This document shows, piece after piece, positions 7,835 to 51,770 of a DNA stretch of 56,112 nt (positions are counted from its first letter, which is position 1; each line of letters starts with the position of its first letter). The stretch spans positions 38,428 to 94,539 of the forward strand of contig JARGNO010000009.1 in assembly GCA_029213165.1 (NCBI GenBank). The letters run 5' to 3'. The position numbers were made by a program, and so were the translations under genes. The DNA comes from Minwuia sp. (lineage in GTDB: Bacteria > Pseudomonadota > Alphaproteobacteria > Minwuiales > Minwuiaceae). The notes beneath the pieces were generated by a model, which saw only the letters and a program-made list of their open reading frames with translations, made no database searches and had not been told where the DNA came from.

Positions 7835-10668
<2,834 letters not shown>

Positions 10669-46594: not shown

Positions 46595-47695
46595 GTGTCC
46601 GGAATACGGGAATTTCTGGCAGGATTCGGACGTGGGCTGACCGAGAGCAGTCGACTTTCCCTGCTGATATGTCTTGTCGTGGCCTTGGCAACATTCGGAT
46701 TCTTCGGTCTTGCCAGTCCTGGTCTGCTTGCCGCCGGGTACAGGGTCATTCCAGGAATTGCCTACGCCGATGACGACCTGTTTGCATTCATGGAGGCGGT
46801 CAGGTCTTCGGCAGCCACCGATGAAGGCCGTGCGGCTGTCATCATTGGCTCCTCTTCAATGCGCGAGGCGCAACACAGTCAACGATACGCCGAACACCGA
46901 ATCCGCGAACTCGGCCTCGAATTCGAACTCGTGGACCTGACCACTTCCAGCCAACCGTTCTGGCATGGCCTGTCCCTTGCCGAGAAAGCCGTCTGCAAGC
47001 GCGGCGGCGTGGTTTTCCTTGGTGTGAACCTGGCGCGTTTCGTCAATGATCCCCGAACCTACCGCCGCGAAAGCACGATTGATCCGGAGTTGCAGACGCC
47101 GGCTCATGAGCGCAGCATTCTGATGCGTGCTGCACAGTTCCAGCAGGCCGTCTATCCTGGCGCGAGGGCCTGGTTGCTGCGATTGCCGACAGAGATCGCC
47201 AAAGTCAGAGGCACCGTCCCGAAGGACAGGAAATTCGCGAACCTGTTCGATCCTGACGATGGACGCCACCGCTACGAACATCTTCCACCGCCGGATGCGA
47301 CGACGGTCTCGAAGCAGGTTGGCGACTACATGACCATGCTTCGCGACGCTGAGAGACTGTATCGTGAAGAAGTCGCGCAGATGGTCGTCGCATTTGCTGA
47401 ACGGCTCGAACATTGTGCTGGAACGGCGATCATCCTGACCGAGCCACCGATAAATCCAAAGGTCATGCAGACCACTGAAATGCAGGCACTGCAAACGGAC
47501 CACGACCGCTTTCTGGACCAGCTCGCGATGCGCATCGGCGCTGACCGACTGGACATCAATGCCAGCGTGCCGCTGCAACCAGGCTGGTTTCACGATATTT
47601 CTCATCTGAGAGACCGTCAGGGTATGAAGACCGTCACGGACAGTCTGGTTCAGGCGCTCGCGGATGTTGCGGCCTCAAGGGGATGGCGGCAATGA
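46595..47695 (+). CDS. DltD-like membrane-anchored SGNH protein
   Basis: 366 residues from GTG 46595. One N-terminal membrane helix (about residues 21-45) then a periplasmic domain. AVIIGSSSMREAQ (residues 81-93) has the nucleophile-Ser G-S-S pattern, with Ser86 or Ser87 as nucleophile, and WFHDISHLRDRQGM near the C-terminus supplies the Asp334-x-x-His337 pair in the D-x-x-H-L form seen in DltD and AlgX-type SGNH acyltransferases. DltD is the periplasmic enzyme that places D-alanine onto teichoic acids. Here it is the first of five overlapping genes; the next is a small membrane protein overlapping it by ATGA. Family is reasonably sure, substrate is not. Confidence 0.8.
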   Translation: MSGIREFLAGFGRGLTESSRLSLLICLVVALATFGFFGLASPGLLAAGYRVIPGIAYADDDLFAFMEAVRSSAATDEGRAAVIIGSSSMREAQHSQRYAEHRIRELGLEFELVDLTTSSQPFWHGLSLAEKAVCKRGGVVFLGVNLARFVNDPRTYRRESTIDPELQTPAHERSILMRAAQFQQAVYPGARAWLLRLPTEIAKVRGTVPKDRKFANLFDPDDGRHRYEHLPPPDATTVSKQVGDYMTMLRDAERLYREEVAQMVVAFAERLEHCAGTAIILTEPPINPKVMQTTEMQALQTDHDRFLDQLAMRIGADRLDINASVPLQPGWFHDISHLRDRQGMKTVTDSLVQALADVAASRGWRQ

Positions 47696-47832
47696 ATGGC
47701 ATGGCGGAAAGGGGACGCATGGCCGGGCTTCTGGTTCGTGGCGTCATGCTCGGTCTCGCGTTGGCCTTCGCTGCAGTTCTTGCAATTGCGACGACCGTGG
47801 ATCGGGCTGTATTCATTTATGCGGGTTTCTGA
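47692..47832 (+). CDS. DltX-like small membrane protein with C-terminal FIYAGF
   Basis: 46 residues, ATG at 47692 overlapping the stop of the SGNH gene (ATGA) with AAGGGGA eight bases upstream. The N-terminus is basic (MNGMAERGRMAG), one helix follows (LLVRGVMLGLALAFAAVLAIA), then TTVDRAVFIYAGF ends the protein. The basic N-side-in rule puts the C-terminus outside. DltX, the small Dlt protein, has a conserved C-terminal F-[IV]-Y-x-x-F-type motif whose Tyr carries the acyl group between MBOAT and DltD; that is recalled knowledge. FIYAGF matches it. Length, topology, motif and position all agree. It is too short for many gene callers. Confidence 0.8.
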   Translation: MNGMAERGRMAGLLVRGVMLGLALAFAAVLAIATTVDRAVFIYAGF

Positions 47833-47848
47833 GGGGCGTGAGGGTTTC

Positions 47849-49708
47849 ATGAGTGCATCGGGCGACAGGCTTTCCGAAATCCTGAACAATGGTCTGCAAT
47901 TGGGCTCGGGACGGAAGGCGGCGATCTCGGGCACCAGCGAAATGCCCTATCGTGTGCTGGTGGAGAGGATCGAGCAGGGGCGGACCCTGCTTGACCAGCA
48001 TGGAATCGTTGAGGGCGACCAGGTTGTCATCCTCTCCGAGAAGGATACCGAAGTCACGTCGCTCTATCTCACCTGCCTTGCGCATGGCGCCGTGGCTGTC
48101 ATCCTGGATCCGCAGGCTTCTGTATCGGAGTTGCTGGTCCTCATCAGTCATTCCGATCCGGCAATGATCTTCGCGGATAGCGAGATCGTCGAGCGCACGC
48201 GGTCGTTGACGCAGACGGAAGAAGCCAGGGTCATCCAGGTGGGGGCAGAGGCGGCAAGCAAGCGCACCGGTTTTGGCCTGTTGCTGCGGCAGAAGGCCCA
48301 GCAGGCTGGGACCATGTATCCGGGCATCCTTGCAGGATGCGGTCGCACGGACCGACAGACCACGGCGACGGGATCCGGTCAGGCGCTGATCCTGTTCACA
48401 TCGGGCACGACCTCGACCCCCAAGGGGGTAAGCATTTCACGCGATGCACTCGCCACACAGATGGAATTGTTGCAACGCCGGTTCTCGGTGAATGCCGACA
48501 GCCGCATCGTCAACCATCTTCCGTTCCATCACAGCGACGGCCTCAATCAAGGGCCTCTGCTGTCATTCGTTTCCGGTGCGGAGGTCATCCGCCCGGAAGC
48601 CGTGAACATGCAGTCCGTGGGCGATATGCTGGATCTTGTCTATCAGCGCAAGGCGACGCACCTGATAACGGTGCCAACCGTGTTGTCGATGATTGATCGC
48701 CTGTCATCCGACTATGATGACAGCTTTTCCGACGATGCGTTCCAGTTCATTGAATCCACGGCCGGACCGCTGGAGCCCGGACTGTGGACCCGGATCGAGG
48801 CGCGTTTCGGAACCCGGGTCGTGAACTGCTACGGCCTGACTGAAACGGTTTGCGAGGCGATGTACTGTGGCCCGTCTGACGACAGTCACCGGATAGGTAC
48901 CATCGGGAAGCCTGACGGATTTGAGGTCCGACTGGTTGATGAAGCAGGGGATGACGTTGCGGCTGAAGAGGTCGGCGAGCTCTGGCTCCGGGGACCGGGC
49001 ATGTTCAGCGGCTACTTCGGGAACGAGGCGGCGACCGCGGAAGTCTTCGAAGGCGACTGGTTTCGAACCGGTGACCTGGCGACCTGTGACGCCGACGGCT
49101 TTTACAGGATTGCGGGGCGGCGCAAGAACCTGATCATCCGGGCCTCCACCAACATCTATCCCGATGACCTGAAGGATGTGGCGCTGACTTTCCCGGCGGT
49201 CACGGATGCGACAGTGGTCGGCATTCCGGACGAGATGCTGGGAGAGAGGGTGGAGATGGTCGTGACCCTGGACCACACGGATGCTGCGAAAGGCCGGCTG
49301 GACCTGTTCGAGCATCTGCGCGCGGGCCTGGCGGCCGAGAAGATGCCGAACGAAGTGACTGTCGTCGAGAGTCTTCCCTATGGGCCTTCTGGAAAGGTCG
49401 AACTGGCCAAGGTGCGGGAGATGATTTCCCGGCAGTCGACGCAGGGGGAAGGCAGCACCATCGATGACAAGGTGATTGCCGAGGCCGCAGCGGCATTTCG
49501 GAGTTCGGCGGCCAGTCTGTCGGCCAGCAGCACCGAAGCCTCTGTCGAAGGATGGGACTCCCTGGCATTCCTGGAGTTCGTCATGCGTCTGGAACGGCGT
49601 TTCGACTTCAGGATGGCCCCGAGAGATGTGATGAGGATTCGCAGTGTCGGGGACGCCATCGGCATTGTTTCGGGCCATGTCGGTGACCGGAACGGTCCGG
49701 TTTCATGA
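47849..49708 (+). CDS. Adenylation-carrier didomain protein (DltA-DltC fusion-like)
   Basis: 619 residues from ATG 47849; the frame opens earlier but inside the small-protein gene. Adenylation domain: ALILFTSGTTSTPKGVSIS (motif A3, from about residue 180), NCYGLTETVCEAMY, WFRTGDLATCDADGFYRIAGRRKNLIIRASTNIYPDDL, and the catalytic Lys516 of YGPSGKVELAK. A C-terminal carrier domain (about 530-610) has GWDSLAFLEFVMRLERRF with Ser571 as the 4'-phosphopantetheine site. It would activate a carboxylic acid and load it on its own carrier arm for the MBOAT protein. The substrate cannot be read by eye; D-alanine is only one option. Overlaps the sulfotransferase start by ATGA. Confidence 0.9.
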   Translation: MSASGDRLSEILNNGLQLGSGRKAAISGTSEMPYRVLVERIEQGRTLLDQHGIVEGDQVVILSEKDTEVTSLYLTCLAHGAVAVILDPQASVSELLVLISHSDPAMIFADSEIVERTRSLTQTEEARVIQVGAEAASKRTGFGLLLRQKAQQAGTMYPGILAGCGRTDRQTTATGSGQALILFTSGTTSTPKGVSISRDALATQMELLQRRFSVNADSRIVNHLPFHHSDGLNQGPLLSFVSGAEVIRPEAVNMQSVGDMLDLVYQRKATHLITVPTVLSMIDRLSSDYDDSFSDDAFQFIESTAGPLEPGLWTRIEARFGTRVVNCYGLTETVCEAMYCGPSDDSHRIGTIGKPDGFEVRLVDEAGDDVAAEEVGELWLRGPGMFSGYFGNEAATAEVFEGDWFRTGDLATCDADGFYRIAGRRKNLIIRASTNIYPDDLKDVALTFPAVTDATVVGIPDEMLGERVEMVVTLDHTDAAKGRLDLFEHLRAGLAAEKMPNEVTVVESLPYGPSGKVELAKVREMISRQSTQGEGSTIDDKVIAEAAAAFRSSAASLSASSTEASVEGWDSLAFLEFVMRLERRFDFRMAPRDVMRIRSVGDAIGIVSGHVGDRNGPVS

Positions 49709-50625
49709 CCGCCGAAACACCTCGAAAGGGCGTGATCGTGCTGGGCCACCCGCGCTCCGGTACCACACTGTTGCGCCGTCTGCTGGATGCCCATCCGGCT
49801 CTGGCCGCCCCTCCGGAAACCCATTTGTTCAGTGCCGCAGCCCGGTTCATCAAGGCGGACATGACGGCTCATGGCGTGGATATGGGAGTGCTGGCCGGGC
49901 TGGAGTTCGCTGGCTTCAGTGACGAAATCGTTCTGGATCGCTTGCGCAGCCTGGTATTCTCCTTCCTCGACGACTATGCGCGAGCGCAGGGAAAACAACG
50001 TTGGGTGGAGAAGACTGCCTTCGACATTCACCATGTGGATGCCATCCAGCGTATCTGCGGTGAGCGCGTCCATTATCTGGGGGTCATTCGGCATCCACTG
50101 GACGTGGCGGTGAGTTGCAAGGATTTCTGTGACGCGGCCGGAACCTACCCTGAAGGCTTGTATCAGTACATTCAAAAATATCCCCAACCAATTGAAGCAT
50201 TTGTTAATTCCTGGATAGATACCACAAGGTCGCTGATGCAGTTGGGGGAGAAATTCCCTGAAACCTGCATGATCTGCCGTTATGAAGACCTGGTGGTTGA
50301 TGTCGAAGGGGTGCTTGGGGAACTTCTCTCATTCATCGGTGAGGAACCTGGCCCGACACTTGGCCAACTCGGTGGCACCGACGTGCTCGGCTTTTCCGAT
50401 CACCGGGCCTACGAGACAGATCAGGTCGTCGATGATCGCGTCAGCAAGTGGCAGGGATTGCCCGGCGCTCAGATTGCCCGACTGGCACCGCAGTTGAATC
50501 CCTTGCTGGAGGCCTGCGGTTACGAACAGCTTGATGGCGACATGCAAGTCGATGCATCGGCGGCGCGCCGTTCCTATGTGCTCGGACAGGCTGCCGGGCT
50601 TTCGCGGGGCCGGAACGGGGTCTGA
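49705..50625 (+). CDS. PAPS-dependent sulfotransferase-family protein
   Basis: 306 residues. 5'-phosphosulfate loop VIVLGHPRSGTTLLRRLLDAHPAL (residues 10-33), ETHLFSAAARF, and the 3'-phosphate motif VIRHPLDVAVSCKDF; later CMICRYEDLVVDVEGVLGELLSFIGEEPG, typical of the Sulfotransfer_3 group. No signal peptide, so it acts on the cytoplasmic side. Such enzymes also occur as tailoring partners of adenylation and carrier domains, which suggests that it may sulfonate the carrier-bound acid or the acceptor. It is coupled on both sides (ATGA and TGATG overlaps), so it is part of the operon. Confidence 0.88.
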   Translation: MTAETPRKGVIVLGHPRSGTTLLRRLLDAHPALAAPPETHLFSAAARFIKADMTAHGVDMGVLAGLEFAGFSDEIVLDRLRSLVFSFLDDYARAQGKQRWVEKTAFDIHHVDAIQRICGERVHYLGVIRHPLDVAVSCKDFCDAAGTYPEGLYQYIQKYPQPIEAFVNSWIDTTRSLMQLGEKFPETCMICRYEDLVVDVEGVLGELLSFIGEEPGPTLGQLGGTDVLGFSDHRAYETDQVVDDRVSKWQGLPGAQIARLAPQLNPLLEACGYEQLDGDMQVDASAARRSYVLGQAAGLSRGRNGV

Positions 50626-51770
50626 TGAGTTTCCTTTCAGGATTCTGGCTCGCGACCATGGCTGCCGTCACCCTCATCTACTGGGTGCTGCCTGCGAGGT
50701 TCAGGTTTCTGTTCCTGATCGGGGCGAGCGCGCTGTTTCTGGGGTATGTGGACTGGCTGTCGCTGGTGACGCTTTCACTGATGACCGTCGCAACCATTCT
50801 GTTTACCCGCACGCCATCTGTCAGCGGGATACGGACCGTTGCGGCGATTTCCGTGATCGCGGCCTTCTTTCTCGGTTTCAAGATCATCAGTGGGCCGCTG
50901 GATTTCCTGAATGCGGGCGATGTCCTGATCCCGCTTGGTATCGGTTATTACACCCTGCGCTGTATCCATTTCGTACTGGAGCGCTACAAGGGCCAGATTG
51001 GACGTTTCGAACCGCAGAACGTCCTGTCCTACCTGTTCTTTGTTCCGACCCTGTTCATCGGTCCGATCCATCGCTATCCCGAATTTGCCCGGGACATGCG
51101 TCGGAACCGTTGGGACTCCGGCACCTTTCAGGAGGGGATCGAACGGATCATCTTCGGGTACATCAAGATCGCGCTGCTTGGCAACTTTCTGACCGTACTG
51201 TTTCAGGATGCCGGCACGACATTCTTTGCCACCCGATCAGCATCTGTGGTCGTCTATATCGAGATGGTGGCGATTGGTCTGAACCTCTACTTCCAGTTCT
51301 CCGGTCATTCCGACATTGCCATCGGGTTTGCCCGGTTGCTTGGCTTCAGGGTCATGGAGAATTTTTCCTGGCCGTACCTGAAACAGAATATCGGCGCATT
51401 CTGGCGTTCGTGGCACATCTCACTGACAAGCTGGTCGCGGGAATACGTCTTTGCCGGTGTTGTTGCGATTACGCGAAGCCCGTTTTTGGGCACCGTGAGC
51501 TCGCTGGTCGCCATTGGCTTCTGGCACGAGGTTTCGCTGCGCTATCTGCTGTGGGGTCTCTATCATGGCCTCGCAGTCGTTGTCTGGCAGCGGTTTCAGA
51601 CGGTGAAGCATCGCCTGCCGGAAATTCGCAGCCCATTGCTTCGTCGCTTCTACGCAGGGTTCTGCGTGGTTCTGACCGTGCATTTCGTCTGGCTCGGATT
51701 CCTGCTGGTGCGCCAGGAAGGCCCCATGCAGATGTGGCAGACGCTGCGCACATTGCTGACCGGAAGCTGA
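50625..51770 (+). CDS. MBOAT-family O-acyltransferase (DltB-like)
   Basis: 381 residues, about ten membrane helices. MBOAT signatures: PLGIGYYTLRCIHFVLERYKG, FVPTLFIGPIHRYPEF, LYFQFSGHSDIAIGFARLLGF, NIGAFWRSWHISLTSWSREYVF (His264), IGFWHEVSLRYLLWGLYHGLAVVVWQ, with His314 as the invariant catalytic His. DltB takes the acyl group from the carrier and delivers it through the membrane; here the donor would be the fused carrier domain and the acceptor the DltX-like Tyr. It is the last gene of the cluster; uvrB converges 14 bases downstream. Confidence 0.93.
   Translation: MSFLSGFWLATMAAVTLIYWVLPARFRFLFLIGASALFLGYVDWLSLVTLSLMTVATILFTRTPSVSGIRTVAAISVIAAFFLGFKIISGPLDFLNAGDVLIPLGIGYYTLRCIHFVLERYKGQIGRFEPQNVLSYLFFVPTLFIGPIHRYPEFARDMRRNRWDSGTFQEGIERIIFGYIKIALLGNFLTVLFQDAGTTFFATRSASVVVYIEMVAIGLNLYFQFSGHSDIAIGFARLLGFRVMENFSWPYLKQNIGAFWRSWHISLTSWSREYVFAGVVAITRSPFLGTVSSLVAIGFWHEVSLRYLLWGLYHGLAVVVWQRFQTVKHRLPEIRSPLLRRFYAGFCVVLTVHFVWLGFLLVRQEGPMQMWQTLRTLLTGS

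Follow-up and report, generated by a model that had tools for sequence, protein, structure and literature searches.

A candidate carrier-fed acyl-transfer operon with a separate FxYxxF microprotein and a sulfotransferase in the alphaproteobacterium Minwuia sp.

What does a marine alphaproteobacterium, in which teichoic acid is not expected, use a Dlt-like set of genes for? The question is raised by a 56,112-nt stretch of Minwuia sp. (contig JARGNO010000009.1, positions 38,428 to 94,539 of the forward strand), which at its full length is called the window here and belongs to contig C50 of genome G000 (4.1 Mb). We confirm five open reading frames (ORFs) at 46595-51770 on the forward strand, which encode, in that order, an SGNH-type acyltransferase, a DltX-like single-helix microprotein, a didomain with an adenylation part and a phosphopantetheine carrier, a sulfotransferase of the PAPS (3'-phosphoadenosine 5'-phosphosulfate) type, and a short DltB-like MBOAT acyltransferase. 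An initial annotation of the letters alone took these genes for one operon that follows the Dlt logic of activation, carrier, MBOAT, microprotein, and SGNH protein, and our analyses support that reading. Specifically, we judge it likely, if some way from certain, that the operon is a carrier-fed acyl-transfer machine of the MBOAT-SGNH kind with a split shuttle, i.e. with the acyl-accepting tyrosine on a separate microprotein.

In the accessible part of PMC12148441 (2025), the acyl group moves from the MBOAT to the tyrosine of a terminal FXYXXF motif and from there to the serine of the SGNH protein, a shuttle chemistry published for DltX and PatA. According to the same partial source, the motif sits on the microprotein DltX in Dlt and is fused to the MBOAT elsewhere, and MBOAT/SGNH systems other than Dlt have neither a carrier nor a DltX-like microprotein. 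The microprotein of the window (47692..47832, 46 aa) ends in FIYAGF (47812-47829), which fits the published motif, and its Tyr43 (47818-47820) is the proposed acyl acceptor. It resembles DltX in size class, single helix, and terminal motif, and has no Pfam match at E ≤ 1. The last 17 residues (LAIATTVDRAVFIYAGF) are identical in a relative of the same genus despite codon changes, and FIYAGF itself is unchanged though 3 of its 6 codons differ.

The partners of this microprotein are also recognizable. The MBOAT (50625..51770, 381 aa) matches PF03062 (E = 1e-21) and carries no C-terminal shuttle motif of its own. Its His301 (51525-51527) is invariant in 6 aligned MBOATs, and a second histidine is His264 (51414-51416). 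The solved structures closest to it are DltB 6bug and 8jem; against all solved structures, the MBOAT profile finds only two DltB sequences at E ≤ 0.001 (best 1.7e-47). The SGNH protein (46595..47695, 366 aa, GTG start) consists of a hydrophobic N-terminal stretch and a presumably extracytoplasmic domain, and has no Pfam match exceeding the cut-off. Its assignment comes from a profile alignment and from a conserved Ser-Asp-His. In hhalign, a profile of the SGNH proteins from the window, the genus relative (G001), and a genome of another class (G495) aligns with a profile of four SGNH proteins from other short-MBOAT operons (E = 2.6e-7, probability 93, 257 columns). Within that four-sequence profile, the first member (G145) falls slightly short of the curated cut-off of the Pfam GDSL models, with E = 1.4e-6. 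Gly85, Ser87, Asp334, and His337 are invariant across six operon SGNH proteins, so by conservation Ser87 (46853-46855) is the proposed nucleophile, with Asp334 and His337 (within 47594-47605) as putative catalytic partners. The name DltD-like, given by the initial annotation, thus holds at the level of the SGNH superfamily and not for DltD itself: DltD (PF04914) has no match in the genome, in a search whose control was positive in 2 of 14 genomes. A six-sequence SGNH profile run against PDB sequences places DltD at E = 0.86, under two unrelated chains, and was not counted as support; a PDB search with the SGNH protein gave 0 matches at E ≤ 0.001 and was discarded.

The genes are as tightly packed as first described. 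The SGNH stop and the microprotein start overlap in an ATGA (47692-47695), a gap of 16 bases (47833-47848) leads to the didomain gene (47849..49708), a second ATGA (49705-49708) joins the latter to the sulfotransferase gene (49705..50625, 306 aa), and a TGATG around 50625 forms the last junction. The didomain start was set at the ATG at 47849, while the program-made ORF list opens the same frame earlier, at 47696. Promoter and terminator scans of the locus gave no signal exceeding shuffles. The relative G001 (locus L031) has the identical five genes in the identical order. The two genes that flank the operon, both ordinary, are also the same: one for a citrate-synthase-like protein upstream, and uvrB, which runs on the opposite strand, downstream. 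Protein identity between the two loci is 75% for the SGNH protein, 77% for the microprotein (over 43 residues), 84% for the didomain, 81% for the sulfotransferase, and 93% for the MBOAT, and the ratios of nonsynonymous to synonymous substitution rates (dN/dS) are 0.11, 0.20, 0.10, 0.11, and 0.04, respectively, i.e. all five genes are under purifying selection. The value for the microprotein (0.20) shows that its gene is real. All five operon proteins (75-93%) are less conserved than the flanking citrate-synthase-like protein (95.5%) and UvrB (99.1%), so that sequence divergence is faster within the operon than around it.

How common is a separate shuttle? The loci L001-L112 hold 88 distinct MBOAT frames, 85 of them complete once 3 cut by locus ends are dropped. 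The motif is fused to the MBOAT in 74 of the 85 (73 by pattern and one ending NLYFQF), mostly in frames of about 440-620 aa from stop to stop. Eight MBOATs are short (360-412 aa), lack the motif, and are each adjoined by a single-helix microprotein. The ending of these microproteins is strict in five (FIYAGF in the window and G001, FRYAGF in G495, FIYVSF in G457, and FVYQNF in G145), near in one (FIYWDN in G446), and loose in two (ILYFDVGSSR in G002 and NPYLDLHRTK in G068). The strict motif ends 11 of the 9044 frames of 35-200 aa that the window and the same loci contain. Ten of these 11 are microproteins of 5 distinct systems (some counted repeatedly), each next to a short MBOAT, and 1 is a chance frame. 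A relaxed pattern finds 22 frame ends, 13 of them microproteins beside short MBOATs and 9 chance frames. Such microproteins were found only next to short MBOATs in a hydrophobic-segment scan of 638 kb, which did not report the one in G495, an omission we put down to lower hydropathy. Separate microproteins occur across three proteobacterial classes, and this recurrence of split shuttles in Gram-negatives is new, contrary to what the accessible part of PMC12148441 says of non-Dlt systems. Two further MBOATs (L059 and L083) lack the motif, and no microprotein was found in the downstream stretch or by the hydrophobic-segment scan. Behind a further motif-less MBOAT (L073/L171; G270:C15, around 9600-10472), an overlapping frame ends in EFLYFQF and is either a split shuttle or a frameshift.

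The same components recur, with an addition, in G495, which belongs to another class of the same phylum. There, the genes run acyl carrier protein (ACP), pyridoxal phosphate (PLP) decarboxylase, sulfotransferase, adenylation protein, SGNH protein, microprotein, and short MBOAT; the carrier is split off, the decarboxylase is added, and the SGNH and microprotein genes overlap in an ATGA as in the window. The co-occurrence in related genomes that the initial annotation had proposed to check is thus found in both G001 and G495. The G495 decarboxylase is TIGR03099-like, and its adenylation protein is TIGR03098-like; DltA models also match the latter, all under cut-off.

Is the operon then a true D-alanylation operon that an alphaproteobacterium acquired, adding D-alanine to lipopolysaccharide (LPS) with the sulfotransferase as a passenger? 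The architecture fits dltXABCD, with which the operon shares an adenylation protein, a carrier, a DltB-type MBOAT without motif, a separate microprotein with terminal FxYxxF, and an SGNH protein; the MBOAT is closest to DltB, and the accessible part of PMC5541007 describes dlt operons in a few Gram-negatives. Several of the individual proteins argue otherwise. Pfam divides the didomain into AMP-binding and AMP-binding_C (the adenylation part, residues 22-516) and PP-binding (E = 9e-6), where a conserved DS motif marks Ser571 (49559-49561) as the putative attachment residue of a Dlt-type carrier, here fused to the adenylation domain. The best NCBIfam and PDB matches of the adenylation domain are acyl-CoA ligases (long-chain-fatty-acid, oxalyl-CoA, and malonyl-CoA types), and no DltA model is among the best 25 of 118 matching NCBIfam families. 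Because the domain is not DltA, the DltA-DltC fusion of the initial annotation is an analogy only. In the aligned adenylation site, G495 reads PWSFDFG, the window and G001 read HSDG, and three other fused domains read HGDG, HTDG, and HNDG, so that a position holding Asp in G495 alone is Ser in the window. Amino-acid-activating domains use this Asp to bind the amino group of their substrate. An amino acid is the probable substrate of the G495 enzyme, and for the enzyme of the window a different kind of acid, not an alpha-amino acid, is probable. Likewise, the MBOAT reaches 157.9 bits against the DltB equivalog TIGR04091, whose cut-off is 375, and DltD is missing from the genome. A passenger role fits poorly with a sulfotransferase gene that is conserved (dN/dS 0.11) and recurs in G495. 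We therefore regard D-alanylation as highly improbable. By its defining tests (no DltA, a DltB score under cut-off, no DltD) the operon is not a Dlt member, and it further differs from dltXABCD in gene order and in the added sulfotransferase, but it appears to work like one.

Other known systems share parts of this design. The PatA/PatB and AlgI-type O-acetylation systems have the MBOAT and SGNH pair and the terminal FxYxxF tyrosine, with the motif fused to a longer MBOAT, acyl-CoA as donor, and neither carrier nor microprotein, as far as the accessible part of PMC12148441 describes them. The novelty claimed by the initial annotation stands for the sulfotransferase; the fusion is not a novel joining of DltA and DltC, and Gram-negative dlt operons had already been described (PMC5541007, partial text). 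Among the matches listed from the open-license literature, outside which most subscription papers lie, nothing points to an MBOAT/SGNH or Dlt-type operon that includes a sulfotransferase. The only listed paper to mention MBOAT, sulfotransferase, and operon together, PMC10143770, deals with aeruginosin clusters, and its accessible part has the sulfotransferase only as a possible nonribosomal peptide synthetase (NRPS) domain.

What, then, does the sulfotransferase add? It matches Sulfotransfer_3 (E = 9.9e-24) and Sulfotransfer_1 in Pfam, and alignment locates its 5' PAPS loop (GHPRSGTTLLRR, 49744-49779), Glu38 (49816-49818), which is presumably the catalytic residue, and Arg129 and Ser137 (within 50089-50115). 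PRSG(T/S)T, Glu38, Arg129, and Ser137 are retained in three aligned sulfotransferases, and the genome encodes adenosine 5'-phosphosulfate (APS) kinase as a PAPS supply, features which point to a PAPS-dependent enzyme. Its presence suggests that sulfate is added as well, either to the attached group or to the target of that group. In one account, the enzyme would act in the cytoplasm on an acceptor, either lipid-linked or a glycan, and a separate acyl group would be added later by the MBOAT and SGNH proteins. NoeE, the Nod-factor sulfotransferase, is its sole NCBIfam match, far under cut-off (49.7 of 500 bits), and the same sulfotransferase stands beside two adenylation types, as a shared acceptor would predict; if these types do supply two donors, acceptor sulfation stays alive as a rival. 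The sulfotransferase gene nonetheless adjoins the adenylation gene in both systems, and the best solved relative by sequence is a polyketide-synthase sulfotransferase domain (4gox, 37.9 bits), slightly ahead of tyrosyl-protein sulfotransferase (34.6 bits). On balance we consider acceptor sulfation rather unlikely, and sulfation of the carrier-bound acyl group in the cytoplasm the most likely role of the enzyme.

From the chemistry of related families, we infer the following route for the favored carrier-fed machine. The adenylation domain would use ATP to activate a small carboxylic acid, which would then be bound as a thioester by the carrier domain of the same protein, and the genome does encode a phosphopantetheinyl transferase. 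Following sulfation, the acyl group would leave the carrier arm and cross the inner membrane by way of the MBOAT, which would pass it to Tyr43 of the microprotein, as in Dlt and PatA chemistry. The SGNH protein would then accept the group from the tyrosine onto Ser87 and deliver it to an acceptor outside the cytoplasm, most likely a glycan or lipid of the envelope. AlmEFG, which adds amino acids to Vibrio LPS, likewise decorates a Gram-negative envelope with an adenylation protein and a carrier; its transferase is not known to be an MBOAT, and it is not known to have a microprotein, SGNH protein, or sulfotransferase. More tentatively, and as a possibility rather than a probability, the operon may install, in the manner of Dlt, a sulfated acyl group, one that receives its sulfate on the carrier, is exported by relay, and is esterified to an outer-envelope acceptor, and may represent an unrecognized Gram-negative class of carrier-fed split-shuttle MBOATs whose loading modules are exchangeable (adenylation-carrier fusions, separate ACP and decarboxylase, perhaps FkbH). 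If so, the sulfated acyl group would add negative charge to the surface, opposite to the effect of D-alanylation. The operons predict a chemically new envelope decoration, and being compact they allow donor loading, membrane crossing, and transfer to be tested.

Alternatively, the MBOAT and SGNH proteins might acylate an exported metabolite of a small-molecule pathway instead of a structural envelope component. Adenylation domains, carriers, and sulfotransferases are commonplace in natural-product clusters, the distribution is scattered, and aeruginosin-type clusters hold adenylation, carrier, and MBOAT proteins (PMC10143770, partial text). The operon itself contains no further biosynthetic genes, however, an EptA-type phosphoethanolamine transferase lies close to the G495 operon, and envelope polymers are the documented context of the FxYxxF/MBOAT/SGNH set (PMC12148441, partial text). 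We regard a small-molecule product as improbable.

Several findings weigh against the carrier-fed envelope reading that we favor. No polymer-biosynthesis gene was found among the ten neighboring genes scanned, which also fits a small-molecule product. An adenylation domain on the same strand accompanies 6 of the 8 short MBOATs and none of the 74 fused ones (flanks up to 1.5 kb), which supports carrier feeding, but this comparison is biased: its three query domains were taken from three of the six loci that gave a positive result, flanks are shorter at contig ends, several short loci are in the search profiles, and the sample is nonrandom. In G003, a fused MBOAT does have an adenylation gene next to it, but on the opposite strand, and it was not counted as the same system. 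The G068 and G002 microproteins have only the loose motif, followed by a four-residue tail. SGNH proteins outside the genus are only 14-23% identical to that of the window, and an AlphaFold model of the protein (two sequences) had a mean pLDDT of 44.4 and was discarded. The matches of the sulfotransferase to NoeE (sugar), carrier-acting, and tyrosyl-protein sulfotransferases are all weak and do not indicate a substrate, its closest solved relatives being too near each other in score. Of the 8 short-MBOAT systems, only those of the window, G001, and G495 include the sulfotransferase; the stretches searched for the other 5 contain none, which makes it an accessory step. Finally, the five-gene set is rare, being present in 2 of 7 genus genomes.

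Wider searches show that the system is rare and scattered. In 143 relatives, the sulfotransferase matches at E ≤ 1e-15 only in G000 and G001, and is missing from the five other genus genomes. Across 398 genomes of the phylum, G495 gives the only strong match outside the genus (E = 1.6e-63), followed by G466 (E = 3.6e-16). The sulfotransferase addition is found in one pair of lineages. The G466 relative (L177; G466:C95, 1501-2307) lies within a long open frame, and none of the other operon proteins was matched in that 3.3 kb locus. Among 385 genomes of the class, high-band MBOATs (592-606 bits, the next scoring 172.6) occur only in G000, G002, and G068, all of which were included in the search profile, and the short MBOAT of G145 falls in a lower band. 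The phylum sample adds the MBOATs of G446 and G495 at E ≤ 1e-48. A contig scan with the didomain found one close locus and five remote loci.

Other short-MBOAT loci differ in what surrounds the shuttle. The two short MBOATs with no adenylation domain beside them are those of G145 and G457. In G145 (L170; G145:C5, 5497-10692, reverse strand), a short MBOAT, the 37-aa microprotein ending FVYQNF, an SGNH protein, and an FkbH-like protein lie on the same strand. FkbH presumably serves in glyceryl-carrier supply, and this split shuttle might be fed by a glyceryl-carrier instead of an adenylation domain. In G457 (L110; G457:C26, 7226-9835, reverse strand), a short MBOAT, an SGNH candidate (P0014), and the 48-aa microprotein ending FIYVSF lie inside a glycan cluster; no adenylation match was found in the 19.5 kb stretch, and P0014 gave no alignment to the window SGNH protein. 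G068 (L032, 6501-11048) and G002 (L033, 8508-13005) share the order hexapeptide acyltransferase (NeuD-like where scanned, in L032), adenylation-carrier protein, small SGNH protein, short MBOAT, and microprotein, with no sulfotransferase in either operon.

The MBOAT profile finds 55 loci in viral contigs, at 24-40% identity. A plasmid search with the sulfotransferase gave no match, and one with the MBOAT returned 136 records, two of which, from Proteus and from a Rhodobacteraceae plasmid, were inspected and are motif-bearing MBOATs. In the Rhodobacteraceae SC52 plasmid CP049029.1 (L169, 96-8383), a fatty acyl-AMP ligase, a P450, an ACP, and a carbamoyl transferase lie upstream of an MBOAT-like frame ending VIYENF, which is possibly a carrier-fed system with a fused motif.

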